From: Methylopila jiangsuensis
Lineage (GTDB): Bacteria > Pseudomonadota > Alphaproteobacteria > Rhizobiales > Methylopilaceae
DNA length: 64,000 bases
Reading direction: 5' to 3'
Assembly: GCF_027922305.1 (NCBI RefSeq)
Contig: NZ_BSFK01000004.1
Location: forward strand, 1-64,000
The translations under genes were made by a program, and so were the position numbers. Shown in pieces: positions 49,639 through 64,000 of the stretch. How positions within the stretch are numbered: position 1 is the first letter of the stretch; each line of letters begins with the position of its first letter. The notes beneath the pieces were generated by a model, which worked only from the letters and a program-made list of their open reading frames with translations, ran no database searches and was not told where the DNA came from.

Positions 49639-49657
49639 ACGCGGGCGCCGGCGGGCT

Positions 49658-50716
49658 TCAGTCCGCCTGCGCCAGCCGGGCCCGAAACGCCCCGTTCGCG
49701 AACAGGGCGTCGAGCAGCGGTTCGGACCAGCAGGCGGTGAGAGGACGAAACCACTCTTGAACATCCCGCGCCACATCGACCCCGTGGAGTTCGCCCGGAG
49801 CGACGCGCCTGAGCCGGCGCGCCGCCTCCTGGCGCGCGAGATAGGCGGCGTGGCGGGGCTCCGGAGCGGCGCGCCCGGGCCCGAGCGCGTAGACCGGGCG
49901 TCCCGCGGCGATGGCGTCGGCGATCATGGAGCGGCTGTCCGCGGTGCAAAACGCCACGCCCGCCCGCCCGAGCCAGTCGCCGACCACCGGACGCGGCGCC
50001 TCCGCGTGCCACACGGCCTCCGCCAGCGTCGGGGAGCCTGCGAGCGCGGCCTTCAGCCGCGCCTCGCCGCGTGCGCCGGTGCGCCGCGAGGTGCTGAGCA
50101 GCAGGCGGGCGCCGGACCGCGCCGCGAGCCGGTCGAGGCCGTGGGCGATGCGGCCCCAGTCGTCGTCCGTATAGCCGTAACCTTCCGTGTCGCCGCCGAT
50201 CAGCGCGCACCACAGCCCTTCGTCGACCGCCGCGCCCATGCCGGCGCGCAGGACCGGCGTCGGGGCGATGGGCAGGCGCACATGCGGCGCGCCGTCCGGC
50301 GCCGCCTCGTCCTCGGACAGGATCAGCAGGTCGAACATGCGCGCCGGCAGATGGATCGGCGCGCCGATGTGGATCGCGAAGGCGCCCTGACGGCGCAGCA
50401 GCGCGCCGGCGAATTCGGAGCGGCCGAGCGCGGTGACGGCCACGTCCGGGCTCATGTCCTCCGTGGTTCCGGCGAACAGCGCGCGGGCGAGCGCGTCGGC
50501 GCCGAGGGCGCCGGGATCGAGCCGGCCGCGACGCAGCGCCTGGGCGGCGAGCGGCCGGGCGAGGCTGCGGCGCAGCCGGAGCGGCGCGGTCTCGACGGTC
50601 GCGGGCGTCCGCGCGGAGATGGCCGTGGCCACGCCGAAGCACTGGTTGGTGACGCCCGGGAGCCGCGCATCGATCGCCCATATGCGCAGCGCGCGGCTCT
50701 CGTCATGCGCGCTCAT
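49658..50716 (-). CDS. ELM1/GtrOC1-family putative glycosyltransferase
   Basis: This 352-residue protein is of the family known as mitochondrial-fission ELM1-like (formerly DUF1022), which has a GT-B fold. Characteristic blocks are [13 protein letters not shown] near the N-terminus, [27 protein letters not shown] and the nucleotide-sugar-like [24 protein letters not shown]. Bacterial members are thought to act in cell-surface glycan synthesis. It is on the opposite strand inside the succinate dehydrogenase locus, divergent from the next gene by 26 bases. Confidence 0.78.
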
Positions 50717-50742
50717 GAGATCGCTCCTGCGGAGGGCGCGCG

Positions 50743-51957
50743 ATGAGCGGAGCGCTCTCCCTTCCTCGCCCGCGGGGCGCGGTGGCGATCGTGTTCGCCA
50801 ATCTGAAGGGCAATCTGGGGGATTTCGCGATCCTTCATGCCATGCTGGCGGAGGCGGGGCGGGCGTTTCCGGGGCGGGCGCTCCATGTCTACTCGCATCC
50901 GCTGCACGGTGTCGACGACGCCCGCATGACGGCGTTCCGCGCGCAAGCGCCGGCGTTCGACTATCGCGGCCCGACGCACAGCGCGCCGCTTGGCCGCTTC
51001 CGCACGCTGGCGCTGAAACTCCGGCTCACGCCCGTCAGTCTCGGAGGGGCGATCCGCAAACGCGCCGCGTCCTGGACCGGCCGCTTCGCCGGTTTCGGAT
51101 CATACGAGGCCGTGCTGTTCGCCGGCGGCGAGCAGTGGGGCGGCCGGGATCTCGGCGGCGCGATGTTCGCGACGCTGGGCGCGGTCCGCCGGCAGGGGGC
51201 CGTGGCGGCCGCGTTTCCATTCTCGGTCAAGCCCAGCCTGCTGCGGCTGCATTCGCCGTCCGGGCTGAAGCGCCTGTTCGCCGCGTTGTCGCGCCCGCTC
51301 GTCACCCGCGACGAGGCCTCGGCCGATCTGCTGCGCGGCGCGGGCGTGCCGGCGGAGAAGGGCGCCGACAGCGTCTTCGGGCTGTCGGCGGAGGCCGCGG
51401 CCATACCCCTCGCGCGCGACCGCGATCCGGAGCGCGTCCTCATCGCCGCGACCGGCGACGCGGACCACGTTCTCGGGGCGGCCGAGCGGCTCATGTCGGA
51501 CGGTCTGCGCGTGGAGGCGCTGACCACCTGCGCCGAGGAGGACGCCGCCACGCTCGCGGCCCTCAGCGACCGGCTGGGCGTCGTCGGCCGCGCGCCGCTG
51601 ACCTGGCAGGAGACGGTGGCGGAGTTCAAGGCCAGCCGGCTGGTGGTCACCAACCGGCTGCACGGCGTGATCCTCGGCGTGCTGGCGGAGGCGACGCTGC
51701 TGCCGGTCGCCAACCGCACCAAGGTGCGCTCCTTCGTGGAGGACGCGGCGCTCGAGCGCCATGCGGACGATCTCGCCGCGATCGACGGCGCGCTGGCGCA
51801 GGCGGCGCTCGCCGGCCGCGACGACATTCTGGCGCGCATGCGCGCCCATCACGACCGCAGCCTCGGCCTGCGGCGCAGCCCGCTCGCGCCCGCCCCGGCG
51901 CGCGCGGTTCCCGAACCTGTTTCGTCCGGCGGAGAACAGCCACAATGGTCGAGCTGA
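50743..51957 (+). CDS. Polysaccharide pyruvyl transferase-family protein
   Basis: This 404-residue protein has the PS_pyruv_trans pattern: [21 protein letters not shown] at the N-terminus, [11 protein letters not shown] in the middle, and the signature [22 protein letters not shown] near residue 300. Such enzymes transfer pyruvate from PEP to sugar residues of surface polymers, or are structural relatives. Its last 13 bases overlap the start of sdhB in another frame, so the two are tightly linked. This suggests sdhB expression depends on translation or transcription through this gene. Confidence 0.83.
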
Positions 51958-52730
51958 GCCTTCCCAAGAATTCGCGCGTCACGGAAGGGCGCACCTGGCC
52001 GAAGCCGGCGGGGGCGAAGACGCTCACCGAGTTCCGGGTCTACCGCTGGAACGGCGACGACGGGCTGAACCCGCACATCGACACCTATTACGTCGACCGC
52101 GACGACTGCGGGCCGATGGTCCTGGACGGGCTGATCTACATCAAGTCCAAGATCGACTCGACGCTGACCTTCCGCCGCTCCTGCCGCGAAGGCATCTGCG
52201 GCTCCTGCGCCATGAACATCGACGGCACCAACACGCTCGCCTGCACCAGAGGCATGGACGAGTGCGCCTCCGGCGGCACGGTGAAGATCTACCCGCTGCC
52301 GCACATGCCGGTGGTGAAGGATCTGGTGCCGGACCTCACCCGCTTCTACGCCCAGCACGCCTCGGTGGAGCCGTGGCTCAAGACCGACACCCGCGCGCCG
52401 GGCACGGAATGGCGCCAGAGCCGCGAGGACCGCGAGAAGCTGGACGGGCTCTACGAGTGCATCCTCTGCGCCTGCTGCTCCACCTCCTGCCCGAGCTACT
52501 GGTGGAACGGCGACCGCTATCTCGGCCCCGCCGCGCTGCTGCAGGCCTACCGCTGGCTGATCGACAGCCGCGACGAGCGCACGGGCGAGCGGCTGGACGG
52601 GCTGGAGGACCCGTTCAAGCTCTACCGCTGCCACACCATCATGAACTGCGCCAAGGCCTGCCCCAAGGGCCTCAATCCGGCCAAGGCCATCGCCGCCATC
52701 AAGGGCATGATGGTCGAACGGCAGTTCTGA
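51945..52730 (+). CDS. sdhB: Succinate dehydrogenase iron-sulfur subunit
   Basis: This 261-residue electron-transfer subunit of complex II carries three clusters: 2Fe-2S ([18 protein letters not shown]...C), 4Fe-4S ([12 protein letters not shown]) and 3Fe-4S ([17 protein letters not shown]). The start [21 protein letters not shown] is typical for alphaproteobacteria, preceded by GGAG at 51931-51934. The gene begins within the 3' end of the pyruvyl-transferase-like gene instead of following sdhA. Confidence 0.97.
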
Positions 52731-53201: not shown

Positions 53202-54008
53202 TTACTTCAGCTTGCTGAGCGAGGTGTCGAACGACAGGCTGGCCAGGAAGCGCGCGCCGCAGGAGCTGCGCTGTCCGATGAACTGAGCGCATTCGCTCCT
53301 GGACAGGCCGCTGTCGGTGTAGCGCAGGTCGAGCGTCATCGCCTTGTAGGTGAGGCCGCCGCCCACGTTCCAGAACGTGTACTCGGGCGCGAAGTTGTCC
53401 GAGATCCACTGCTTGCCGATTTCGCCCGACACATAGGCGCCGAGGACCGGGAACTGCGGCAGCGAGGCCAGGGCGTATTTGCCGAACAGCGAGGCGTGGG
53501 TGCCGTCGACATCCTTCACGCCGATGAACTTGCCGGTCCAGAACAGGTTGGCGCCGATGGTGAACTCGTCGGTGAGGGCGTATTTGGCGATGCCGTACAC
53601 CTTGTAGAAGTCGAGCTCGCGGACGCCGCTGTCTTCGCCGGAGTAATCGATCCAGACATAGCCCACGTCCAGCGACAGCCGGTCGAAGGTGTGGCGGACG
53701 CCGCCGTAGATGTCGATTTCGGCGCTCGGATTGGTGCCGTCGAAGTCGACGTTCGACGCCCAGACGCCCGCATAGACCCAGTCGAACGCCGAAAGCTCGG
53801 CGTAGCCCTGGATCGCCGGGTCGCCCTTGGTCTGGCTGACGCTGCGCAGGTTGTATTCGCTCGCGAGCTTGACGCCGAAGGCGATGTCGATCGGCAGGAT
53901 CGGCTCGGCGGTCATGGGCGTGGCGAGGTCGGCCGCTGCGGCGGGCGCTGCGGCGAAGCCGGCGGCCGCAATCATCAGCGCGCCGCATGCGTGTTTCAGG
54001 TAGGACAT
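53202..54008 (-). CDS. TorF-type outer-membrane porin
   Basis: This 268-residue protein has a Sec signal (CGALMIAAAGFAAAPAAAADLA). The mature part has the pattern of the Gcw_chp/TorF family: FGVKLASEYNLRSVSQTKGDPAIQGYAEL, VYAGVWASNVDFDGTNPSAEIDIYGGVRHTFDRLSLDVGYVWIDY, and amphipathic beta strands to a C-terminal SLSFDTSL. It would form a beta barrel, possibly for small polar solutes. It is the last gene of the minus-strand amide block and may provide outer-membrane entry, an inference from position only. The ATG at 54006-54008 is used; its promoter region is CTAG-rich. An intrinsic terminator follows. Confidence 0.85.
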   Translation of the reverse strand: MSYLKHACGALMIAAAGFAAAPAAAADLATPMTAEPILPIDIAFGVKLASEYNLRSVSQTKGDPAIQGYAELSAFDWVYAGVWASNVDFDGTNPSAEIDIYGGVRHTFDRLSLDVGYVWIDYSGEDSGVRELDFYKVYGIAKYALTDEFTIGANLFWTGKFIGVKDVDGTHASLFGKYALASLPQFPVLGAYVSGEIGKQWISDNFAPEYTFWNVGGGLTYKAMTLDLRYTDSGLSRSECAQFIGQRSSCGARFLASLSFDTSLSKLK

Positions 54009-54031
54009 TTCGATCAACCCCGTCAAAACAA

Positions 54032-54072
54032 CTAGACGACTGATACTTTCTGACTCTAGCAATATCATCTAG
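54032..54072 (-). promoter_or_regulatory. CTAG-rich cluster upstream of the porin gene
   Basis: Three CTAG tetramers (54032, 54056, 54069) lie in 41 bases in an AT-rich stretch 24-64 bases before the porin start. The minus-strand octamer AGCTAGAT (54067-54074) also occurs in the urtE-dmfA1 gap. A shared regulator-binding site is possible but unproven. Confidence 0.4.
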
Positions 54073-54217
54073 CTTAATTTTTGTCGTTTAGATCGAAGCA
54101 GAGCGCCTGTGACATTTATGCTGCAACGCAATAATCTTGGATAGAAGTTCGACGACGGCGCCCTTATGAGGCGCAGCCCACAGCATGTGGGGGCCGTGAG
54201 CCGCCGAACATCTCCGG

Positions 54218-54526
54218 TTACGGCGCGCCGACGGGCGCTTCGTCTGGGTTGCGCCGGAAGAGGTACAGCATCGGACCTTTGACCGAGGTCTCGGCCAGCG
54301 GGATCTTCAGCTGCTCGGTCATGTAGCGCAGCACGATGGCGGCGGCGGCGGGCGAGAGCAGCGGCTTCCACAGCCAGATGTCCCGCTCCCGGTCGACGCC
54401 GTTCTCCTCGAACAGCGCCGTCTCGGCGTTCACGCCGGAGCCGATGCGCCAGCCGGAGGGCTCGGTCCCGAACTCCTTGATGTAGCTCAGGAACTCAAAC
54501 TTCACCTGTTGCGGGCTGAACACCAT
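54218..54526 (-). CDS. Unknown 102-residue protein of the amide block
   Basis: I do not recognise the family. The protein starts MVFSPQQVKFEFLSYIKEFG, has an aromatic DIWLWKPLLSPAAAAIVLRYMTEQL segment and ends in Asp/Pro-rich residues. There is no signal peptide or membrane helix, so it is a small cytoplasmic alpha/beta protein. A GTG at 54535 overlapping the Sel1 stop is an alternative start; the ATG at 54526 has GGTGAG upstream. Coupling to the Sel1 gene suggests that the two act together. Confidence 0.75.
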   Translation of the reverse strand: MVFSPQQVKFEFLSYIKEFGTEPSGWRIGSGVNAETALFEENGVDRERDIWLWKPLLSPAAAAIVLRYMTEQLKIPLAETSVKGPMLYLFRRNPDEAPVGAP

Positions 54527-54531
54527 GGCGC

Positions 54532-55230
54532 TCACCCCGGCACGGGGGTGAGACGGGCGTGGATCGACACGTCCGGGGTCGCCGCGCGCCAGCGCGCCAC
54601 GCCCGCGGCGCCCGCGCGCTTCTCGTCCGCGGACATCTGGCCCACCACGCCCTCCAGCGCGCTCAGGGCCGTGCCCACGCCGTGCTGGGCCGCGAGCGAC
54701 AGCCACACGTAAGCCTCCACGCGGTCCTTCTCGACGCCGACGCCGTTGGCGTAGAGGAAGCCGAGCCGGGCCTGGGACGGGTAGTGGCCGCCCTCGGCAG
54801 CCTTGCGGTACCAGCCGGCGGCGGCGGTCGCGGAGTTGTCCTGCGCCGTGGGCTTGGACAGCAGTGTGGCCAGATTGTACTGGGCGTAGAGGTCGCCCTG
54901 CTCGGCCGCGCGGGTGAGCCAGACCACCGCCTGCCGCTCGTCGCGCTCCACGCCCTGGCCCATGGCGAGCATCGCGCCCACGTTGGTCTGGGCCAGCGCG
55001 TTCCCGGCCTCGGCCGCCGCGAGATAGAGCGCGAAGGCCATCTGGGGCGAGGCCGCGCAGCCTTCGCCGTGGGCGTACATCACGCCGAGCCAGGTCTTGG
55101 CCTCGGCGTGGCCGGCGTTTGCGAGGCTCTGAAACAGCTCGAACGCGAGCTCGAAGTCCTCGCGGTTGTAGGCGGCGATGGCCTGTTCGAGCGGCGAGCC
55201 GCGCTCGGCGTCAACCTTGGCGGAGAGCAT
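54532..55230 (-). CDS. Sel1-repeat protein
   Basis: This 232-residue protein is built of about four to five Sel1-like helical repeats, recognised by the A..G...A...LG..Y..G.GV pattern: AGHAEAKTWLGVMYAHGEGC, AGNALAQTNVGAMLAMGQGV, QGDLYAQYNLATLLS and GGHYPSQARLGFLYANGVGV. There is no signal peptide, so it is probably a cytoplasmic scaffold. It starts 4 bases after the Rieske-like gene and overlaps the next start, so the three are co-translated. Its partner may be one of the neighbouring metalloproteins, by inference. Confidence 0.88.
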   Translation of the reverse strand: MLSAKVDAERGSPLEQAIAAYNREDFELAFELFQSLANAGHAEAKTWLGVMYAHGEGCAASPQMAFALYLAAAEAGNALAQTNVGAMLAMGQGVERDERQAVVWLTRAAEQGDLYAQYNLATLLSKPTAQDNSATAAAGWYRKAAEGGHYPSQARLGFLYANGVGVEKDRVEAYVWLSLAAQHGVGTALSALEGVVGQMSADEKRAGAAGVARWRAATPDVSIHARLTPVPG

Positions 55231-55234
55231 GGGG

Positions 55235-56329
55235 TCAGCCTTTCGGGTTCTGGTAGAGGGGTTGCTCGACCGGGCCGAGCGGCGCCCGGGCGACGCGCGC
55301 GGCCAGAACGGCCTGCAGCCACGCGGCGACGTCGGAGGTCTGGCGCGGCAGCGGCTGGCCGATGGTCTCGGGGCGGTGGGTGGTGCCGAAGCGGGACAGC
55401 GCGAGATGCTCGGCTTCGGCCTCCGCGGCGCGGGCTTCGATCTCGGCGCGCCAGCGCTCCAGCGTCGCGGCGGGCTCGGCGCCGTAGACCGACACGCGGC
55501 AGAGCGTCCGGCCGATCGCGGTCGGCTGCAGGATGACGACGGCGGTGTCCCGCTCGTCCGACAGCAGCACGAGATTGGGGAACAGAACGGCGGCGCGCAG
55601 GGGGCGTCCGTCGCGGGTCTCGGCGTCGGAGACGGTCCAGCCGCCCTCCGGGTCGGAGGCGGCGAGGCGGCCAGCGGCGAGCGCCGCGGCGGTCAGCTTC
55701 CAGTTCGCCTTGAATTCGAGCCAGATCTCGTCGGAGCGGTTGGGCTTGTGGTTGCCGAAGGCGCCGCTCTCGCGGTTCAGCCGCTGCAGGCCCGCCTCGG
55801 TCCAGTTGGGGGCGATGTCGAGATTGACGAAGATCAGCGGGCCCCAGCTTCGGGCCTGGGCGGTGAGCAGGCGCTCGGGCCTGAGGCCGAGGTACTGGTG
55901 CATCTCCGGCGTGCCGTCGCCGAGCTCGCTCGCGGGGATCGCGGCCCGGTCGCGGCTGTAGCCGCAGGAGGTGAAGGAGCACTTGGTCTTGGCGCCGGTC
56001 TGGCACTGCAGCGGCACCGCGCGGCAGCCGCCGTGCTGGGCCTTGTTGAAGCGCGCCGCCAGCCCGGTCGCGGTCCGCTGCACATGGACGCCGTGGGTGC
56101 CGACGGTGAAGGGCAGCAGGTCGCCCACGTTCGGGATCGCCTCATGGGCGCCGACGCAGACCCAGTCCCGGGTCCACACCGCCTCGTCCTCGAGCCGGGT
56201 GAAGGCCAGCGAGCGGACGGCGGCGGGCGGCAGCGTCCGGGCGTCGCCGGTGGTGGCCTCCATGTAGAAGGCGGGGGCGGCGAGATCCTGCCCCTCGTCG
56301 AAGTAACCGAGGTCCGGGCGGTGCTCCAT
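55235..56329 (-). CDS. Degenerate Rieske ring-hydroxylating oxygenase homologue
   Basis: This 364-residue protein has the scaffold of a Rieske oxygenase alpha subunit (FTRLEDEAVWTRDWVCVGA, IPNVGD, then SWGPLIFVNLD near 161 and NWK at 209-211). The metal ligands are altered. The usual CxH becomes A97-Q-H99, and the usual CxxH becomes C117-S-F-T120. Instead four cysteines (102, 109, 117, 122) make C-x6-C-x7-C-x4-C. The NWK segment is followed by Ala/Gly/Arg residues with none of the histidines that bind the mononuclear iron. It cannot be a standard oxygenase; a cluster-only electron carrier, a sensor or an assembly factor are possible. It lies 74 bases downstream of the large hydrolase subunit. 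Confidence 0.8.
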   Translation of the reverse strand: MEHRPDLGYFDEGQDLAAPAFYMEATTGDARTLPPAAVRSLAFTRLEDEAVWTRDWVCVGAHEAIPNVGDLLPFTVGTHGVHVQRTATGLAARFNKAQHGGCRAVPLQCQTGAKTKCSFTSCGYSRDRAAIPASELGDGTPEMHQYLGLRPERLLTAQARSWGPLIFVNLDIAPNWTEAGLQRLNRESGAFGNHKPNRSDEIWLEFKANWKLTAAALAAGRLAASDPEGGWTVSDAETRDGRPLRAAVLFPNLVLLSDERDTAVVILQPTAIGRTLCRVSVYGAEPAATLERWRAEIEARAAEAEAEHLALSRFGTTHRPETIGQPLPRQTSDVAAWLQAVLAARVARAPLGPVEQPLYQNPKG

Positions 56330-56361
56330 GGGGCTGCGCCTCATCGAATGCGGGGAAGGGG

Positions 56362-56396
56362 CCCTCCGCCCGCGGCGCGAAACCGCGGGCGGAGGG
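56362..56396 (-). other. 14-bp hairpin between dmfA2-like and Rieske-like genes
   Basis: A perfect GC-rich 14-bp stem (56362-56375 with 56383-56396) with a 7-base loop fills the 74-base intergenic gap. There is no U-run on either strand. It probably stabilises the 3' end of the hydrolase mRNA or reduces downstream expression. Confidence 0.6.
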
Positions 56397-56403
56397 GAGG
56401 GGC

Positions 56404-58803
56404 TCAGGAGGCCGTGGAGGCCAGCGCCGGGGACTCGTAGTCCGCGCGGCCGCGATGCTTGATCGCGTCGGCCGGGGGCTGCGGCAGCGGGCCGTCCTGC
56501 ATGAAGTGGTTCAGGACGTTGCCCACCAGCTTCGAGATGTTGTTGTCGCCGTTGTTCCAGGGCAGCGAGCCGCAGAACGCGATCGACGAGAACGAGAAGC
56601 AGGCGCCGCCGTTCGGGGTCTCGTGGAAGGCCACGTCGCCGCGGACGCGGGGATGCACCGTGCCGTCGAGGCCCTGCTGGTTGAAGCCGAAGTCCTCCAT
56701 GACGAGCAGGTAGGCTTCGGTGTGCCGGCCGGCCGAGGTGGCCACCGCCAGGGTGTGCGGGGGCGAGCCGAGCGTGACGTCGACGATGTCGAGCTCCAGA
56801 CCGGCGCAGCCGCCGCCCACGAGGCCGAAGTTGCCGAGCGGCTCGTCGTAGGAGATGCCCTCGAAGGCGAAGGCCACGCGGGGATCGTTGCTGTCCGGGG
56901 TGCGCGAGTAGTAGGTCGAGATGTCGAAGCCTTCGTTCGTCATGCCGACGCCGGCGACCGAGTAGAGCGACCGGCCGCGGAAGCGCCACATGCCGCCGAG
57001 CTCGCCCGTGCCCTGGTGGTAGTACTCGCCGGGCTCCGCGCGCCAGGTGCGGATGCCGCTCTCGCAGCGCCGCATCTCGGTGATGACGCCGCGGCCGATG
57101 TCGTCATAGGCCGGGTGGTACGAGTGCACCCAGTACCAGGCGTCGGCGCCCATATACATCAGGCGGCCGCCGCGCTGGGTGTAGTTGTGCAGCGCGTCGA
57201 GCTGCGTGCCCGAGTTGTGCTCCGGATGCGAGCCGGTGATGACGACGTTGTAGTTCTCGAGCCGGGCGAGGCCGTCATAGGTGACGTCCTCGTCGGTGAT
57301 GACGTCGTACTCGTAGCCCATCTGCTCCAGCCAGTAGATCAGATGGAGGTCGGCCGGGTACTGCCACGGGGCCTGGGCCAGGAAGTGGTCGTACTTCGGA
57401 CGGATCGACAGGATCGGCCGCAGGCGCGACGACATGCAGATGCCCGAACCGTCGGTGTGCGTGTCGTAGATCGAGCCGCCGTATTCGCGGTGCTCGGCCA
57501 GGAACATGTTCTGGTGCTGCATGATCGGCACGCGGTACACGAACAGCTCCGCGCCGCCGGCGTTGCAGGCCACGTGCTCGTTGGCGTAGGCCATGTAGGA
57601 GATGGTCGGGACCATCACCGCGATCTTGGACTGCTCCTTGCCGATCTTCGGCACGACCCAGAACGGTAGGTAGTCCTCGTCGCCGTCCGTGGTCGTGACC
57701 TTGAGCGCGTAGAAGCGGCTCTTGATGTCTTCCGGCACGGTCCAGACGACGTCTTCCGACCAGCGGGCGTTGTCCACGTCGTCGTCGTGGAAGTGGATGC
57801 CGCCGTACTCCTTCTTGGCGTATTTCCAGTCGAAGTTCTGGCCGGACCAGTTGTAGCCGGTGAGCGCGCGGGTCGGGCAGTTCACCAGCTGCGCGTCGAA
57901 GCGGTAGGGGCCGTTGTCCTTGGCCTTGAGGGTGCTGATGCCGTCCCAGAAGTCCCAGGCGGCGACGATCAGGCCGGACAGCTCGCCGGTGGGGCCGGAG
58001 TTGCGGCGCTCGGTCAGGCCGGGCTGCGCGCCGAGCTTCATCTGCTCGATCTCGAAGCGGCTCAGCGCCTTCTTCAGGATGCGCGGGCTGTCGATCTTGC
58101 CGTTGTACTTGCCGGTGAACCAGACGCCGACCGGGAGCGAGGAGGCGCCGAGCGGATCGTCGCTGATCTTCTCCACGTAGGCCGCCAGCGCGACCGGCGC
58201 TTCGGTGTGCTCGATCGTGGTCTTGATCCTGGTCTTGACCGGCTCGATCACCGGATCGAGGGCGTAGACCACCTGCGGCTCATGATAGAGCGTGACGTCG
58301 CCGGTGGCGGCGTCGAAGGTGGCGGCGACGAAGTGCCAGGCGTGGTCGCGGATCGGGGCGCCGGTGGTGATCTTGTGGCCGTTGATCCGGAGCTCGAGGC
58401 AGCCCTCCTCGTTGATGAACAGGCCGTAGCCCTTGCCGTCCATCCACTTGGTCACGAGGCCCTGGGCGCCGTGCTTCCAGTACCGCGGATGCGTCTTCGG
58501 CGTCGTCGGCCAGATGTAGCACTGCAGCGTGAAGCTTTCGACGTGGAACTGCGGCGCGTCCTCCACATAGCCGTAGGAGCCGCCGTGGATGATCTGCTTG
58601 CGGCCCTTGTAGGTCCCGTTGGCGGCCGCCTCGACGGGCTTCTCGATGAAGCCGGGGCCGCGCGGGTTGGTGTCGCCGTGGATCATCTGGACGATCTCGG
58701 CCTTGAACTCGGCCGGGCCGTCGCAATTGACGTAGAACTTGATTTCGTCGCCGGGGTGGACGCTGAATTTGTCAGCGTATCCAGTCAACCGCATGGCGCA
58801 CAT
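56404..58803 (-). CDS. N,N-dimethylformamidase-type hydrolase, large subunit
   Basis: This 799-residue protein is of the DMFase beta-subunit family, which uses a mononuclear iron to hydrolyse N,N-dimethylformamide to dimethylamine and formate. The N-terminus LTGYADKFSVHPGDEIKFYV, the jelly-roll/lectin-like segment to about 260 and the catalytic half from about 380 follow the family throughout. The known enzyme binds iron with two tyrosines and a glutamate; the matching positions here appear to be Y406 (MAYANEH), Y446 (GGSIYDTH) and E528 (GSHPEHN). This assignment rests on recalled literature and by-eye alignment. The ATG at 58803 has GGAG 8 bases upstream. Other amides are possible substrates. 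Confidence 0.88.
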   Translation of the reverse strand: MCAMRLTGYADKFSVHPGDEIKFYVNCDGPAEFKAEIVQMIHGDTNPRGPGFIEKPVEAAANGTYKGRKQIIHGGSYGYVEDAPQFHVESFTLQCYIWPTTPKTHPRYWKHGAQGLVTKWMDGKGYGLFINEEGCLELRINGHKITTGAPIRDHAWHFVAATFDAATGDVTLYHEPQVVYALDPVIEPVKTRIKTTIEHTEAPVALAAYVEKISDDPLGASSLPVGVWFTGKYNGKIDSPRILKKALSRFEIEQMKLGAQPGLTERRNSGPTGELSGLIVAAWDFWDGISTLKAKDNGPYRFDAQLVNCPTRALTGYNWSGQNFDWKYAKKEYGGIHFHDDDVDNARWSEDVVWTVPEDIKSRFYALKVTTTDGDEDYLPFWVVPKIGKEQSKIAVMVPTISYMAYANEHVACNAGGAELFVYRVPIMQHQNMFLAEHREYGGSIYDTHTDGSGICMSSRLRPILSIRPKYDHFLAQAPWQYPADLHLIYWLEQMGYEYDVITDEDVTYDGLARLENYNVVITGSHPEHNSGTQLDALHNYTQRGGRLMYMGADAWYWVHSYHPAYDDIGRGVITEMRRCESGIRTWRAEPGEYYHQGTGELGGMWRFRGRSLYSVAGVGMTNEGFDISTYYSRTPDSNDPRVAFAFEGISYDEPLGNFGLVGGGCAGLELDIVDVTLGSPPHTLAVATSAGRHTEAYLLVMEDFGFNQQGLDGTVHPRVRGDVAFHETPNGGACFSFSSIAFCGSLPWNNGDNNISKLVGNVLNHFMQDGPLPQPPADAIKHRGRADYESPALASTAS

Positions 58804-58931
58804 CGGATTTCTCCAGTTATTCGCTTGCGCGAGGCAAAGGCCGGGCGTTTGCGCCGACGGGATCGCCAGCGCATCAAGGCTTGGGGGGGACTGAGGACCG
58901 AGCGGCCCTCAGTCCCGATCGAAGGGGTGGT

Positions 58932-59372
58932 TCAGGTGACGGGCCAGTTGTCGTCCCGATGCTTCCACCCTTCGGTGAAGTGCTCGGGCATGCCGGCCGT
59001 TTCGGGCAGCTCGTCCAGACGCATCAGGAAGATGTCGTGCTGGATCTCCTGCTCGCAGGTGTAGACCTTGTCGTTGACGAACTCCGGCGGCACGCCGCGG
59101 ACGCCCGACAGGCGGCCGATCCGCCACTCGGCGTCGATCTTGGTGCAGATGACCACCAGCTTGCCCTTGGGGGACTCGCCGCGCATGCGCAGCAGCACGC
59201 GGCGCAGATCGGGGTTCTCATGCACGCCGCCGGTGACGACGGTGGTGTCGCCGGGCGTTTCGCACTTCAGCACCGAGAAGCCCGCGACCCCTTTCATGGA
59301 GTCGACGCACTCCCGGTGCTCCTTGATCATGGCCTCGCGTTCGGGCGTGCCCTTCTTGGGGATTGGAATCAT
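58932..59372 (-). CDS. N,N-dimethylformamidase-type hydrolase, small subunit
   Basis: This 146-residue protein precedes the large-subunit gene by 128 bases. Known DMFases pair a large chain with a small one of about 130 residues. The C-terminal half here (IDAEWRIGRLSGV, VPPEFVNDKVYTCEQEIQHDIFLMRLDEL) follows the small-chain pattern, while the N-terminal half (FSVLKCETPGDTTVVTGG) looks diverged. The ATG at 59370-59372 (MIPIPKKGTPEREAM) is chosen because AGAGAGG lies 6 bases upstream; the frame remains open to 59447 without homology. An intrinsic hairpin lies in its leader. Confidence 0.8.
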   Translation of the reverse strand: MIPIPKKGTPEREAMIKEHRECVDSMKGVAGFSVLKCETPGDTTVVTGGVHENPDLRRVLLRMRGESPKGKLVVICTKIDAEWRIGRLSGVRGVPPEFVNDKVYTCEQEIQHDIFLMRLDELPETAGMPEHFTEGWKHRDDNWPVT

Positions 59373-59445
59373 CGCAGACCTCTCTGAAGCATCGCGGCCT
59401 TCTCGAAGGCGCGGAGAGTGTTCGATCGCAAGATGAGCGACCGTC

Positions 59446-59480
59446 AAAAAGGAGAAGAGGCGATTCCTCTTCTTTGTTTT
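59446..59480 (-). terminator. Bidirectional intrinsic terminator upstream of the small-subunit gene
   Basis: An 8-bp stem (59453-59460 with 59466-59473) with a 5-base loop has a U-run on both sides: UUUUU on the minus strand (A59446-A59450) and TTGTTTTT on the plus strand. It ends the urt operon, but it also lies between a sigma-70-like promoter and the dmf genes, so it may be an attenuator. Confidence 0.78.
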
Positions 59481-59490
59481 TGCGAGTTCT

Positions 59491-59520
59491 AATCTATTCC
59501 CAATCCGGACGTTGCGTCAA
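59491..59520 (-). promoter_or_regulatory. Sigma-70-like promoter upstream of the dmf-type genes
   Basis: On the minus strand TTGACG (59515-59520) is separated by 17 bases from ATAGAT (59492-59497), or by 18 bases from TAGATT (59491-59496). The predicted transcript would start near 59484 and immediately form the terminator hairpin. Confidence 0.55.
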
Positions 59521-59526
59521 TGGCGA

Positions 59527-59559
59527 CTAGATATTTTTCTAGATGAAAAATCTAGCTAG
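59527..59559 (-). promoter_or_regulatory. CTAG cluster overlapping the urtE end
   Basis: Four CTAG tetramers (59527, 59539, 59552, 59556) occur in 33 bases, together with a 7-bp inverted repeat ATTTTTC/GAAAAAT (59533-59539 with 59545-59551). The element lies just upstream of the -35 box and shares AGCTAGAT (minus strand) with the porin upstream region. Confidence 0.4.
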
Positions 59560-60264
59560 TTAGATCGTCATGTGGCGCTCGACCAGCTCGTCGGTCATCT
59601 CCCCGATGGGGCCCCGGGCGACGACCCGGCCGTTGTCCACCATCAGGAAGGCGTCGCCGAGCTTGCGGGCCACCTTGATGTGCTGCTCGGTCAGGATCAG
59701 GCTGATGCCCAGCTCCTTGTTGAGCATCTTCAGGATCTCGCCGATCTCGTGGACGATGTTGGGCTGGATGCCCTCGGTCGGCTCGTCCAGCAGCAGGATC
59801 TTCGGCCCGACCGCGAGCGCGCGGGCGATGGCGAGCTGCTGCTTCTGGCCGCCCGAGAGCAGGCCGGCGCGGCGCTCCAGGTTGTCCTTCAGATAGGGGA
59901 AGATCCTGAGGCAGATCTCGGGGATCTCGGGCGCCTTGTCGGCGCGGGCGAAGGTGCCGAGCAGGATGTTCTCGCGCACGGTGAAGTCCGAGAGGATGCC
60001 GCGCCCCTGCGGCACGTAGCCGATGCCGTAGGGCGCGCGCTGGTGCGGCGGCTTGGCGCCGATGTCGGCGCCGTTGATGCGGATCGCGCCGGTGGAGCGG
60101 TCGGTCAGCCCCATGATGGTGCGCATCAGCGTGGTCTTGCCCACGCCGTTGCGGCCCAGCACGCACAGGCACTGGCCTTCCTCCAGATCGAAGGACACGT
60201 CCTTGAGGATTCGCGTCGCGCCGTAATAGGACGTGACGTTGTCGAAGTTGAGCAGCGCGCTCAT
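59560..60264 (-). CDS. urtE: ABC transporter ATPase, UrtE type
   Basis: This is one of two ATPases of a branched-chain-amino-acid/urea/amide class importer, 234 residues. Walker A is LGRNGVGKTTLMR, the signature motif is LSGGQKQQLAIARAL, Walker B is ILLLDEPTEGIQPNIVHE, and the switch histidine is in LTEQHIKVARKL. The TEGIQPNIV wording and SYYGATRILKDVSF are typical of UrtE. Its ATG overlaps the urtD stop (ATGA). Confidence 0.9.
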   Translation of the reverse strand: MSALLNFDNVTSYYGATRILKDVSFDLEEGQCLCVLGRNGVGKTTLMRTIMGLTDRSTGAIRINGADIGAKPPHQRAPYGIGYVPQGRGILSDFTVRENILLGTFARADKAPEIPEICLRIFPYLKDNLERRAGLLSGGQKQQLAIARALAVGPKILLLDEPTEGIQPNIVHEIGEILKMLNKELGISLILTEQHIKVARKLGDAFLMVDNGRVVARGPIGEMTDELVERHMTI

Positions 60265-61007
60265 GCCGCCTCCTTCTCGCCGAGATAAACGTCGCGCACG
60301 CGGGGATTGGCCTCGATCTCCTGGAGCGAGCCCTGGGCCAGCATCGAACCCATGTGCATGACCGTGACCACGTCCGCGATCTCGCGCACGAAGCCCATGT
60401 CGTGCTCGACCACGATCAGGGTCGCGGTCTTCTGCAGGTCCTTGAAGATGCGGGCGGTTTTTTCGATCTCGCCCTCGGTCATGCCGGCGATGGGCTCGTC
60501 CATCAGCAGGAGGCGCGGCTCCTGCATCAGCACCATGCCGATCTCCAGCCACTGGGTCTCGCCATGGGACAGGATGCCGGCCTGCTCGCCGAGCCGGGTC
60601 GTGAGGCCCGCGAGCGTCGCGATCTCGTCCAGCTTCTCCTTCAGCCCCGCCTTGTGGAACTTGAACAGGTTCCAGAACGGGTTGGTCTGGCGGCTGTAGG
60701 CCACTTCGAGGTTCTGGCGCACGGTGAGGTTCTTCAGAACCGCCGGCACCTGGAACTTCCGCCCGATGCCGGCGCGGGCGATGACGTGCTCGTGTTTGGC
60801 GGTGATGTCCTCGCCCGCGAACAGGATCGCGCCCGAGGTCGGCTTGATGCGGCCGGTGACGAGATCCATCGTTGTGGTCTTGCCGGCCCCGTTGGGACCG
60901 ACGAGGCAGCACAGCGTCCCCTCGGTGACCTCCATGCTGAAGTCGTTGATCACCTTGGTGGCGTCGAAGCTCTTGGACAGGTTCTTGATTTCGAGAAGTC
61001 CGGGCAT
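60261..61007 (-). CDS. urtD: ABC transporter ATPase, UrtD type
   Basis: This second ATPase, 248 residues, is of LivG/UrtD type. Walker A is VGPNGAGKTTTMDLVTGRI. The UrtD-like segment GRKFQVPAVLKNLTVRQNLEVAY is present, followed by ILSHGETQWLEIGMVLMQEPRLLLMDEPIAGMTEGE, in which the ABC signature reads LSHGETQ as in urea/amide transporters. The histidine switch is VVEHDMGFVREIAD. It overlaps urtE and follows urtC by 10 bases. Confidence 0.92.
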   Translation of the reverse strand: MPGLLEIKNLSKSFDATKVINDFSMEVTEGTLCCLVGPNGAGKTTTMDLVTGRIKPTSGAILFAGEDITAKHEHVIARAGIGRKFQVPAVLKNLTVRQNLEVAYSRQTNPFWNLFKFHKAGLKEKLDEIATLAGLTTRLGEQAGILSHGETQWLEIGMVLMQEPRLLLMDEPIAGMTEGEIEKTARIFKDLQKTATLIVVEHDMGFVREIADVVTVMHMGSMLAQGSLQEIEANPRVRDVYLGEKEAA

Positions 61008-61017
61008 CTCGGCTCCC

Positions 61018-62121
61018 TCACTCGGCCGGCAGGGGCTTGGCGTCGCCGTTGGTTTCGGCGGCGGGGGTCTTCGGCTTGGTCGCGAGCAGGCCGAGCGCGG
61101 ATTCGAGCAGGCTCGCGAGGCCGTTCGGCAGGAAGCGGACCACGACGATGAAGAAGCCGCCGAGGATCAGGAGCCAGGTGGCGAGGAAGGCGTCGCCGAG
61201 ATAGCTCTGCGCGCCCTGGATCAGGAACGCGCCGCACATGGCGCCGAGCAGCGACAGCCGGCCGCCGATCGCGGCCCAGATCACCATCGACAGGCTGAAG
61301 CCCACGTCGAGCTGCGCCGGCGAGACGTACTGCACCAGCATCACCAGGCAGCAGCCGGCGAAGGCCGCGATCGCGCCGGAGATGGTGTAGATCGCGGTCT
61401 CGTAGCCGGCGACGCTGTAGCCAAGGAAGCGCACGCGCTCGGCGTCGTCGCGGATCGCCTGGGTCACCAGTCCGAACGAGCTCTGGGTGATGAGCTTCGC
61501 CACCACCGTCGCGGTGACGAGGATCGCGAGCACGATCCAGTAGGCGGTCGAGCTGTAGGGGTCGATCTCGAAGCCGCCGAGCTGCAGCGGGGAGGGCGGC
61601 GTGATGCCGTTGACGCCGCCGGTGTAGGGCTGGCGGTCGAGAATGATGGTGTAGAAGGCCGACAGCATCGCGAGCGTCATGATCGCGAAGAACGGGCCGG
61701 ACACGCGCGCCCGGAACATGACGCCGCCGAAGATGGCGCAGAACAGCGTCGGGACCGCGATCGACAGGATCAGGCCGGCGGCGGTGTTCGAGAACGGCTC
61801 CCAGAACCAGGGCAGCTGGTCGAGGCTGTTGTTCAGCATGAACGGCGGGATCGGGTTCGATTCCGTCTGGCTCTGCATCTGCATGGTCATGGCCATGCCG
61901 TAGGCGCCGAGGCCGAAGGCGATGCCCTGGCCGAGGTTGAGGATGCCGCCGAAGCCCCAGCACAGGCTGATGGACAGCGCCAGCATGCCGTAGACGCCGT
62001 AGGTGGCGAGCTGGTTGAGCAGGAAGTCGTCGCTCACGAAGCTCGGGATCACCGCCAGTCCGAGGAAGAACGCCGTGTAGACGAGCCACTGGGCGGTCTT
62101 GTTGTGGTAGAGGTTGCCCAT
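61018..62121 (-). CDS. urtC: ABC transporter permease, UrtC type
   Basis: This inner-membrane permease has about nine to ten helices (367 residues from the ATG at 62121; a GTG at 62130 is an alternative). Family blocks include TYGVYGMLALSISLCWGFGGILNLGQGIAFGLGAYGMAM, typical of UrtC, and the EAA-like loop IRDDAERVRFLGYSVAGYET that contacts the ATPases. The basic C-terminal tail is cytoplasmic. It lies between urtB and urtD. Confidence 0.92.
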   Translation of the reverse strand: MGNLYHNKTAQWLVYTAFFLGLAVIPSFVSDDFLLNQLATYGVYGMLALSISLCWGFGGILNLGQGIAFGLGAYGMAMTMQMQSQTESNPIPPFMLNNSLDQLPWFWEPFSNTAAGLILSIAVPTLFCAIFGGVMFRARVSGPFFAIMTLAMLSAFYTIILDRQPYTGGVNGITPPSPLQLGGFEIDPYSSTAYWIVLAILVTATVVAKLITQSSFGLVTQAIRDDAERVRFLGYSVAGYETAIYTISGAIAAFAGCCLVMLVQYVSPAQLDVGFSLSMVIWAAIGGRLSLLGAMCGAFLIQGAQSYLGDAFLATWLLILGGFFIVVVRFLPNGLASLLESALGLLATKPKTPAAETNGDAKPLPAE

Positions 62122-62167
62122 GGTTCTCACTCACCCATGCGGTTGCTGTTGAGGACGAGGGCGCGCG

Positions 62168-63043
62168 TCACCGGCGCGCTCCCGCCTGGGCGAACAGGCC
62201 CTGCGGCCGGAAGCGCAGGAACACCACGATCAGCACGAAGATGACGAAGCGCGCGAAGGTGTCGTTGGTGAAGAAGGCGAAGATGGACTGAAGTTCGCCC
62301 GTCACCCCGCTCGCGACCACCGTGCCGGCGAGCGAGCCGCCGCCCGTGACCACCATCAGGAAGGCCTGCACCACGTAGCTCGCGCCCATGGTCGGCAGGA
62401 CGATCGCCAGCACGCCGAACAGGGAGCCCGCGACGCCGGCGAGGCCTGCGCCCAGCGCGAAGGTCATCATGTAGACGCGGCTCGAATTGATGCCGAAGGA
62501 GGCCGCCATCTCCTTGTTCTGCATCACCGCGCGCACCTGGACGCCGAAGCGGGTCTTGTAGAACAGCAGCCAGACGCCGAGCACGCACAGCGCCGTCACC
62601 AGCAGGATGACCACGCGGAAGCTGGAGATGGAGGCGAAGCCGAGCGAGATGTTGCTGGAGAAGATTTCGGGCGCCGCGAGATATTTCGGGTCGCTGCCGA
62701 AGATCAGCCGCACGCCCTGCATCAGCACCAGCGAGACGCCGTAGGTGGCGAGCAGCGTGTCCAGCGGCCGGTTGTAGAGGTAGCGGATCAGCCCCCGTTC
62801 GAGCGCGAGGCCCACCGCGCCCACGATGACGAAGGACGCCGGGATGCACAGCAGGTAGGGCAGTCCTAGGTAATACTGCAGCATGTAGGAGGAGTAGGCG
62901 CCGAGCATGATGAACTCGCCGTGCGCCATGTTGATGACCCCGGCCGCGCCGTAGATGATCGTGAGCCCGAGCGCGGCGATCAGCCAGATGCTGGCGATGC
63001 TGAGCCCGAGGATGAGCGCGTTGAGGAGCGAGCCAAGGTCCAT
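62168..63043 (-). CDS. urtB: ABC transporter permease, UrtB type
   Basis: This 291-residue permease, partner of UrtC, has about eight helices. The start SLLNALILGLSIASIWLIAALGLTIIYGAAGVINMAHGEFIMLGAY and the RAVMQNKEMAASFGINSSRVYMMTFALG loop are typical of the urea/amide branch of LivH-type permeases. UrtB proteins with a long periplasmic N-terminal extension are known; this copy lacks it. It follows urtA with 114 bases between, containing a terminator-like hairpin. Confidence 0.92.
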   Translation of the reverse strand: MDLGSLLNALILGLSIASIWLIAALGLTIIYGAAGVINMAHGEFIMLGAYSSYMLQYYLGLPYLLCIPASFVIVGAVGLALERGLIRYLYNRPLDTLLATYGVSLVLMQGVRLIFGSDPKYLAAPEIFSSNISLGFASISSFRVVILLVTALCVLGVWLLFYKTRFGVQVRAVMQNKEMAASFGINSSRVYMMTFALGAGLAGVAGSLFGVLAIVLPTMGASYVVQAFLMVVTGGGSLAGTVVASGVTGELQSIFAFFTNDTFARFVIFVLIVVFLRFRPQGLFAQAGARR

Positions 63044-63098
63044 CGTGCCGATCCGTGGTTTCTAGAAGCAGGACGTCGGGCGCGACGGCGCCCGTTGG

Positions 63099-63148
63099 AA
63101 AAAGCGGGATGGCGGGCCCGTCGGACGTCTGTCCGCCGGGCCCGCCAT
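63099..63148 (-). terminator. Hairpin with U-run between urtA and urtB
   Basis: On the minus strand a 12-bp perfect stem (63137-63148 with 63109-63120) encloses a 5-bp inner stem after one mismatch. CCCGC and UUUUU (A63099-A63103) follow. It should cut most transcription after urtA, giving an excess of binding protein over permease. Confidence 0.8.
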
Positions 63149-63157
63149 CGTCAGGCG

Positions 63158-64000
63158 TCAGATGACGTTGGTGCGGACCTTGCCGTCCGGGGCCTTCAGG
63201 CCGTCCTTGGTGCAGACGCCGGCGTCCGGGTAGATCGAGTACGGGTCCGGAGCCACGTGCTTCTCGGCGGCCTTGACGATCTTGAACGTGCCGTCCGCCT
63301 GGCACTGGCCGATCTTCGGCTTGAGCCAGGTGTTGAAGTTGTTCTCGTCGATCCAGACCAGGCCTTCCGGCGAGACCGCGTCCTCGACCCGGACGCCGCC
63401 CGAATGGTCGCGGATGGCGCGGGGGGTGACGTTCTCGAAGCCGACGGCGGCGGCGGCCTTTTCAAAGCCGGCCTTGAACACGTAGGCGGTGAGGTACGTC
63501 TCCTCCATGTTGTAGTGGGTCACGCCGTTCTTGCCGTACTTCGACTTCAGGAAGTTCTCGACGAACTTCTGGTTGGTCGGGTTGTCGAGCGACTGGAAGT
63601 ACGGCGCGGACAGGAAGTGGCCGGCGCCGAACTCGGCGCCCATGGCGCGGGTCTCGATCTCGCCGGTGGTCAGCGAGGCGATCGGCATGGTGTCGACCTT
63701 GAAGCCTTCCTGCTTGAACTGCTTGTGGAAGGCGATGTCGGAGGCGCCGACCACGGTCGAGAAGATGAAGTCCGGCTTGGCGTCGCGGATCTTGTTGAGC
63801 ACGGGGCCGAACTCGGACGAGCCGAGCGGAATGTACTCCTCGCCGAGCAGCTCTCCGCCGGCCTTCTCAAGCCAGATCTTGGCGTTCTTGTTGGACTCTT
63901 TCGGCCACACGTAGTTGGAGCCGACGAAGAAGACCTTCTTGCCGAACTTTTCGACCATGAAGGGGATGAGGTCCTGGGAGTGCTGGTTGGCCAGCGGGCC
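63158..64000 (-). CDS. urtA: Urt/Fmd-type substrate-binding protein (5' end outside window)
   Basis: This is the C-terminal 280 residues of a periplasmic binding protein of the urea/short-chain-amide family (UrtA, FmdD, AmiC relatives). The frame is open to the window edge, where it reads GPLANQHSQDLIPF. Visible family blocks are KVFFVGSNYVWPKESNKNAK, DFIFSTVVGASDIAFHKQF, and the late segment VWIDENNFNTWLKPKIGQC. Urea and amides such as acetamide and formamide are known ligands of relatives. The adjoining DMFase-type genes favour an amide. The signal peptide and N-terminal lobe lie beyond the window. Confidence 0.92.
   Translation of the reverse strand, partial: GPLANQHSQDLIPFMVEKFGKKVFFVGSNYVWPKESNKNAKIWLEKAGGELLGEEYIPLGSSEFGPVLNKIRDAKPDFIFSTVVGASDIAFHKQFKQEGFKVDTMPIASLTTGEIETRAMGAEFGAGHFLSAPYFQSLDNPTNQKFVENFLKSKYGKNGVTHYNMEETYLTAYVFKAGFEKAAAAVGFENVTPRAIRDHSGGVRVEDAVSPEGLVWIDENNFNTWLKPKIGQCQADGTFKIVKAAEKHVAPDPYSIYPDAGVCTKDGLKAPDGKVRTNVI

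Follow-up and report, generated by a model that had tools for sequence, protein, structure and literature searches.

The closest described relative of the hydrolase considered here is the dimethylformamidase (DMFase) of Paracoccus, DmfA1/DmfA2 (structure 6lvb), whose iron is reported to be held by Tyr399, Tyr440 and Glu521 and for which His519 and Asn547 are described as essential (PMC7686228). N-acetyl-(R)-beta-phenylalanine acylase (8huy, 8i5a) shares the large-subunit family (expect value, E, about 3e-113) and lies farther from our large subunit than DMFase does. Here we describe a gene block of Methylopila jiangsuensis that encodes an Urt-type transporter, a DMFase-type hydrolase (FmdS and FmdL) and three partners of the hydrolase, namely a degenerate homologue of Rieske oxygenases (the Rieske-like protein), a Sel1-repeat protein and a protein of 102 residues. 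The block ends a 64,000-nucleotide stretch (the window; positions 1-64000 of contig NZ_BSFK01000004.1, or C4) of a 3.7-Mb genome assembly with 18 contigs and a completeness of 100.

The hydrolase resembles DMFase in its two-subunit layout, its DMFA2_C domain, its Tyr-Tyr-Glu ligands and its catalytic His. Unlike DMFase, it belongs to a branch with Asp in place of Asn547, His after the position of Glu521 and a linked set of three partner genes, and published evidence, as presented in PMC4543880, speaks against the use of dimethylformamide (DMF) by one branch member. The transporter shares gene order and fold with the UrtABCDE urea transporter and AmiC, but its UrtA misses the curated cut-off and carries substitutions at three urea-contact positions. 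The Rieske-like protein has the overall fold of Rieske non-haem iron oxygenases such as CntA and biphenyl dioxygenase and aligns with their N-terminal Rieske domain; unlike them, it has two of the four ligands replaced, no invariant His in its catalytic domain and four Cys arranged otherwise. The original prediction, made from the window alone, had named a one-strand block of urtA to urtE, DMFase-type subunits, the three partner genes and a TorF-family porin gene. All of these are present, and the whole block lies on the minus strand, where it had been placed.

The hydrolase branch

The large-subunit gene, fmdL (56404..58803), encodes 799 residues with a DMFA2_C domain (PF20254; 284.9 bits against a cut-off of 27), and residues 5-783 of the product align to DMFase 6lvb with an E of 1.3e-149. 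The small-subunit gene, fmdS (58932..59372; 146 residues counted from an ATG), was assigned from its position and a weak match to the small subunit of 6lvb; its product has a mean pairwise identity of 0.74 across 77 loci and the window.

Searches with FmdL alone returned branch members of 74-92% identity in 5 of 385 genomes of the class, 10 of 61 genomes of relatives and 16 of 347 genomes of the order; the window's own genome is counted in each set, and the distinct branch genomes number 21. Full-length branch members are 68-92% identical to FmdL and full-length non-members at most 48%, with a single non-branch half-gene fragment (G087) at 54%. In a midpoint-rooted tree with 40 sequences from the branch and 40 from outside it, the branch came out together, with a support of 0.978 and a long stem. 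By these sequence comparisons, FmdL belongs, within the DMFase family, to a branch with sharp limits.

The residues of 6lvb were placed by reading its alignment with FmdL, and conservation was counted over 142 rows, 102 of the branch (including genomes fetched twice, and with three short FmdL rows, L092, L103 and L157, left out) and 40 others. The predicted iron ligands Y406, Y446 and E528 and the catalytic H526 are invariant in all 142. The position of Asn547 is Asp (D554) in 102/102 branch rows, while the others have Asn in 37/40 and Asp in 3/40. The residue that follows the Glu ligand (H529) is His in at least 97% of the branch rows and Tyr in 40/40 of the others, and further branch-specific residues of the catalytic domain include H560 and C580.

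Linkage of the partner genes to the branch

The three genes that follow fmdL had been proposed, on the grounds of tight spacing and overlaps, to form a unit with the hydrolase. The spacing is indeed tight, as the genes for the Rieske-like protein (55235..56329; 364 residues), the Sel1 protein (54532..55230; 232 residues) and the 102-residue protein (54218..54526) are separated by 4 and 5 nucleotides. Overlaps are absent from the window and occur in some relatives, whose gene starts were picked by a script; the distance from the Rieske-like gene to the next partner ranges from -17 to +47 nucleotides in 79 loci.

The comparison with other genomes bears out the proposed unit, and homologues of the partners do not occur mostly away from DMFase-type genes. 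When loci were gathered by FmdL only, the Rieske-like gene stood beside fmdL in 21/21 branch loci and in 0/53 other DMFase-type loci (fetched loci with 1,500-base flanks; two genes among the 53 are present twice, as two pieces each). One of the 53 holds a match to an ordinary oxygenase, with 23% identity and 42 bits. The branch FmdL and a strong Rieske-like match were found in the same 5 of the 385 class genomes, and among the 63 other class genomes in which FmdL found any match at E 0.001, weak matches included, none had a Rieske-like match above 60 bits. The Rieske-like query in turn had strong answers in the same 10/61 and 5/385 genomes, and the next scores, 48 and 60 bits, presumably belong to ordinary oxygenases; up to two candidates per genome were scored in the FmdL searches of the class and order genomes and up to five in the Rieske-like search of the class genomes. 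A profile of the 102-residue protein scored at least 124 bits in the same 5/385. Among 72,556 plasmid records, 83 have an FmdL relative and one of these, pAMI5 of Paracoccus aminophilus, belongs to the branch (68.5% identity; the other 82 are below 60%). The same plasmid has the sole strong Rieske-like match among the 83, at 157 bits, the rest reaching at most 61.

A larger set was obtained by scanning named genomes with an alignment of the Rieske-like protein, which found 88 relatives, of which 80 were kept as loci. FmdL is encoded directly upstream in 80/80 of them, the Sel1 gene is present in 80/80 and the 102-residue gene in 79/80, so that both stand together in 79/80; the contig of the 80th ends after sel1. 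The Sel1 gene precedes the 102-residue gene in 59 loci and follows it in 20. Most record titles are of alphaproteobacteria, with gammaproteobacteria (Pseudomonas, Stutzerimonas, Salinisphaera), betaproteobacteria (Methyloversatilis, Burkholderia) and one contig labelled Acidobacteria; judging from the genus names, we take many of the bearers to be methylotrophs. The three partner genes and the genes of this hydrolase branch thus form one unit, and we refer to hydrolase and partners together as the module.

Other neighbours are less constant. urtE lies directly upstream of fmdS in 62/80 loci and anywhere on at least 69, the urease gene ureC is on at least 21, amiE on at least 5 and torF on at least 9, counts that are lower bounds because of short contigs and flanks of at most 10 kb. 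A response regulator occurs in at least 19/80 loci and an AmiC-like protein in at least 10/80. The porin gene (53202..54068; TIGR02001, 104.4 bits, cut-off 47.15) is thus no constant part of the block, and TorF is a neighbour rather than a core component. In one relative's locus (L045 949-3504), a distant DMFase-type pair, approximately 36% identical, lies just upstream of the module's urtA.

The Rieske-like protein

Taken alone, the window's Rieske-like protein has a single Pfam match, at 19.6 and below the cut-off of 24.9. A profile built from 55 sequences, one from the window and the others from 54 loci of the set of 80, finds Rieske oxygenases whose structures are known, at a best E of 4.4e-14, and the AlphaFold model (predicted local distance difference test, pLDDT, 89.4) has CntA as its closest fold (Foldseek E 1.5e-15, TM score 0.60). 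In the profile alignment, the ligand motif CxH...CxxH reads Ala97-x-His99...Cys117-x-x-Thr120, in which Cys has given way to Ala97 and His to Thr120, and His99 and Cys117 are kept.

The patterns used in the 80-locus scan sit inside the Rieske motif, so that conservation there is inflated in that set. We therefore turned to 22 sequences gathered free of any pattern, 21 of them via FmdL and that of pAMI5 via a protein search; Cys102, Cys109, Cys117 and Cys122 and His79, His82 and His99 are present in 22/22. In the 55 sequences, 38 columns are invariant, and His79, His82 and His99 are the only His among them. No invariant His was found in the catalytic domain of these 55, where the mononuclear iron site of an oxygenase would have two His and one carboxylate. 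The best-conserved stretch is residues 91-130 (mean top-residue frequency 0.84), and conservation is lowest after residue 175 (0.35-0.50). As far as sequence can tell, neither centre of a Rieske oxygenase is intact, and a new set of Cys and His is retained, through which the protein may bind metal.

The pAMI5 orthologue keeps the four Cys, with Val at position 97 and Leu at position 120. Its gene (L222 11890-12870) is annotated as biphenyl 2,3-dioxygenase, despite the two ligands being gone.

The Sel1 and 102-residue proteins

The Sel1 repeats score 107.6 bits (PF08238; cut-off 30.7), and no export signal is visible by eye in the Sel1 protein. The 102-residue protein is modelled as a small alpha/beta fold (pLDDT 90.6), with no Pfam family and no fold match in the PDB at E 0.001 or better. 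Its close members are confined to the module. That the whole family is so confined was rejected, since weak relatives (34-43 bits) occur in five more class genomes; these five have no FmdL match, and no DMFase gene was found in the surroundings of the four relatives that were read (L216, L217, L218 and L220). One weak relative shows a sub-threshold GIY-YIG match, at E 0.029.

The partners diverge 2.9-3.7 times faster than FmdL yet follow it (r 0.76-0.83), and FmdS diverges 1.3 times as fast. Such faster but correlated divergence suits helpers of a slowly changing core enzyme better than catalytic subunits.

The transporter and the substrate

The original prediction held that the Urt-type transporter takes up urea and short amides. 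The products of urtB (62168..63043; TIGR03409, 311.5 bits, cut-off 250.3), urtC (61018..62130; TIGR03408, 321.5 bits, cut-off 296.2), urtD (60261..61007; TIGR03411, 315.2 bits, cut-off 304.1) and urtE (59560..60264; TIGR03410, 294.6 bits, cut-off 285.8) each pass their NCBIfam cut-offs. The substrate-binding protein gene urtA, present as predicted, runs past the end of the window (63158..64000, continuing to C4:64462), and its product stays below the UrtA cut-off (TIGR03407, 339.7 bits against 492.75). In Prochlorococcus UrtA, changes of Trp120, Ser122, Gln144, Tyr190 or Asn246 are reported to have greatly lowered or abolished urea binding (PMC10392092). The positions of W120, Q144 and N246 are Tyr, Cys and Asp in 56/57 UrtA-type matches that lie upstream on the module's strand. 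Urea was set aside as a substrate on account of the missed cut-off, the changed contact residues and the presence, on the same contig, of another urt operon with a UrtA above that cut-off (539.7 bits). That second UrtA yet has Phe at the Q144 position and may not be a plain urea binder.

DMF, to which the hydrolase had also been assigned, is doubtful as well. According to the account of these plasmids in PMC4543880, the two pAMI5 subunits share 34% and 40% identity with the pAMI2 DMFase, a P. aminophilus strain deprived of pAMI2 was unable to use DMF, and no link between the pAMI5 genes and DMF use was found. On pAMI5 of P. aminophilus JCM 7686, a UrtA-like protein, a kinase and a regulator are encoded to one side, followed by fmdS, fmdL, the Rieske-like gene, the 102-residue gene and an AmiS/UreI-family gene. 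Because of the phenotype of pAMI2 loss and the altered urea site of UrtA, both DMF and urea are unlikely, and the replacement of Asn547 likewise suggests that DMF is probably not the substrate of this branch. The substrate may still be a short or N-methylated amide, which would agree with the short amides named in the original prediction.

Hints of N-methyl groups in the hydrolase product come from 5/80 loci (L118 and L121-L124, with Rhodopseudomonas, Bradyrhizobium and Bauldia titles), in which members of the alpha and beta families of sarcosine oxidase are encoded beside the module. By clustering, PurU is present in three of the five, and a glutamine-amidotransferase-like gene lies near several; scanned representatives pass the soxA, soxB and PurU cut-offs. 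Genes related to sarcosine oxidase serve methylamine use via N-methylglutamate. The window's genome also encodes a methylamine dehydrogenase light chain (C5:188334-188891; 394.9 bits against a cut-off of 196.85), and the organism can probably use methylamine. The catalytic efficiency of DMFase is given as highest on N-methylformamide in Table 1 of PMC7686228. With these neighbours, the methylamine dehydrogenase and this preference, a mono-N-methylated amide, such as N-methylformamide, is a fair candidate substrate, as a lead rather than a result. Guanidine was considered too, since UrtA and FmdL each gain an Asp; a search with Rfam at gathering scores found no riboswitch in 14/80 loci, the window or its contig neighbours (two tRNAs only).

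Discussion

Our best guess, with a probability of approximately 0.45, is that the three partners assemble or activate the branch hydrolase within an operon for scavenging a small amide. The transporter, of the ATP-binding cassette type and with an altered binding site, would import a small compound resembling an amide, other than urea and probably other than DMF, which the ferric Tyr-Tyr-Glu site of FmdS/FmdL would hydrolyse. The three partners are dedicated to the branch; the Rieske-like protein would hold iron or an Fe-S cluster by its four Cys together with His99 and hand over or oxidise iron, the Sel1 protein would act as a scaffold and the 102-residue protein as an adaptor. We favour assembly or activation because of the Cys-rich site of the Rieske-like protein and the altered site of the hydrolase. 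As an analogy, TEF5/PSB33 is described as a Rieske-like protein devoid of the ligands that acts in the assembly of another complex, photosystem II; unlike the window's protein, it resides in a membrane, belongs to the green lineage and is described as having no metal-binding residues (PMC12164590). A fuller version of the proposal is more tentative: a former Rieske oxygenase may have exchanged its Rieske ligands for a new iron or Fe-S site of Cys and His and become a dedicated maturation factor, which together with the Sel1 and 102-residue proteins installs or activates the modified Tyr-Tyr-Glu centre (with its extra His and Asp), the substrate being an unrecognised amide- or amidine-like nutrient.

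Several observations weigh against the assembly or activation role and the substrate proposed with it. Recombinant Paracoccus DMFase from Escherichia coli is reported to have kinetics like those of the native enzyme (PMC7686228), which means that the iron site of the family needs no such helpers in general; as DMFase is active without partners, helpers would have to answer the modified site of this branch. The Sel1 gene was not found in the 24.7-kb stretch of pAMI5. FmdS matches 6lvb_B at an E of 0.34 only. In the model of the Rieske-like protein, the Cys-bearing loops are less certain (residues 91-130, pLDDT 69-80), and a clustering of the four Cys in space is putative. The DMF phenotype was obtained in one host, in which the pAMI5 genes were perhaps unexpressed, and retention of pAMI5 in the pAMI2-free strain is deduced from its being called essential. 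The open literature that was searched held no experiment on any of the three partners. Finally, tight linkage alone fits a third subunit equally well.

Such a third subunit could be a working redox component, in which an all-Cys or Cys/His cluster of the Rieske-like protein exchanges electrons with the iron of FmdL for a redox-gated or oxidative cleavage of the amide. The conserved Cys/His set within a Rieske-oxygenase fold and the branch-specific His, Asp and Cys of the FmdL catalytic domain (H529, D554, H560 and C580) would suit it. We nevertheless consider it unlikely, given the fast divergence of the Rieske-like protein and the lack of a conserved His in its catalytic half. It is also disfavoured, if weakly since the open reading frame (ORF) caller missed genes, by the neighbours: none of the 29 groups scanned through representatives, out of 33 unlabelled groups that recur in at least 3 of the 80 loci, is a ferredoxin or oxygenase reductase standing alone, and the sole ferredoxin-type domain lies inside the sarcosine oxidase alpha group, in 5 loci. 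No more probable is a metal-free set of chaperones and scaffolds for the folding or assembly of FmdSL, in which the Cys would stabilise the structure as disulfides or bind Zn. Conservation of the Cys does not by itself imply iron, the 102-residue protein has no evident metal motif and Sel1 proteins often serve as scaffolds; however, His99 and Cys117 occupy retained Rieske ligand positions with the other Cys close in sequence, and cytosolic disulfides would be unusual in proteins in which no export signal is seen by eye.

A role of the partners in sensing amide, iron or oxygen, and so in regulating the operon or the enzyme, seems improbable to us. Regulators are common nearby, as the counts of response regulators and AmiC-like proteins attest, but candidate sensors other than the partners are already at hand there, and a search for domains in the three partners of the window, and in relatives of the Rieske-like and 102-residue proteins, gave neither a kinase nor a DNA-binding domain. 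Least probable of all is a DMFase that uses DMF and has incidental neighbours. Family membership and the conserved iron ligands would agree with it, as would the methylamine dehydrogenase light chain and the sarcosine-oxidase-family genes of 5/80 loci. Against it stand the failure of P. aminophilus to use DMF without pAMI2, as reported in PMC4543880, the replacement of Asn547 in 102/102 branch rows and the 21/21 against 0/53 loci by which the neighbours are not incidental.

The close association of the branch with its partners suggests that an unusual iron enzyme has a set of helpers so far unrecognised. If the partners do mature the iron site, they would be, to our knowledge, the first such set for hydrolases with two Tyr and one carboxylate, and a Rieske fold would have been reused. 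The module also points to a small-amide nutrient that is not named for these genes in the literature searched, where we found no paper on the module and one mention of a member (PMC4543880). In the one annotated record that was read, that of pAMI5, the names given to the products are DMFase-family, "biphenyl 2,3-dioxygenase" and hypothetical; with annotation of this kind, wrong functions may be propagating.

Gene layout and surroundings

Within the block, the stop of urtD is overlapped by the start codon of urtE. Between urtE and fmdS, promoter-like and hairpin sites were noted on the minus strand (59520-59491 and 59473-59453), and a terminator-like hairpin of 16 pairs lies 3' of torF (53175-53136, minus strand). 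These are consensus matches only, and promoter-like and hairpin sites overall are about as frequent as expected from shuffled sequence.

The surroundings are rich in amide-related genes, and an aliphatic amidase above its cut-off, an AmiC/UrtA-like protein and a urease accessory protein are encoded near the window. Divergent from urtA, at C4:64976-68499, lie genes for a response regulator, a hybrid kinase and a UrtA/AmiC-like binding protein; the pAMI5 counterpart of the latter has no visible signal peptide and may be a cytosolic amide sensor. Further on, C4:68686-80274 holds genes for a MoxR-like ATPase and a VWA-type protein, a urease operon, an aliphatic amidase gene and AmiR/AmiC-like genes (several of these names were given by eye) and reads as a large small-amide island. 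The second urtABCDE operon, with both UrtA and UrtB above their urea cut-offs, is at C4:85794-93697. It is followed by a gene of the FmdA acetamidase/formamidase family (PF03069, 603 bits) and, by eye, a second TorF-like porin gene, and the whole is a unit parallel to the main block. Elsewhere in the window, at 47803-52730, two unrelated-looking ORFs, one on each strand, stand between ORFs that we take to be SdhA and SdhB.

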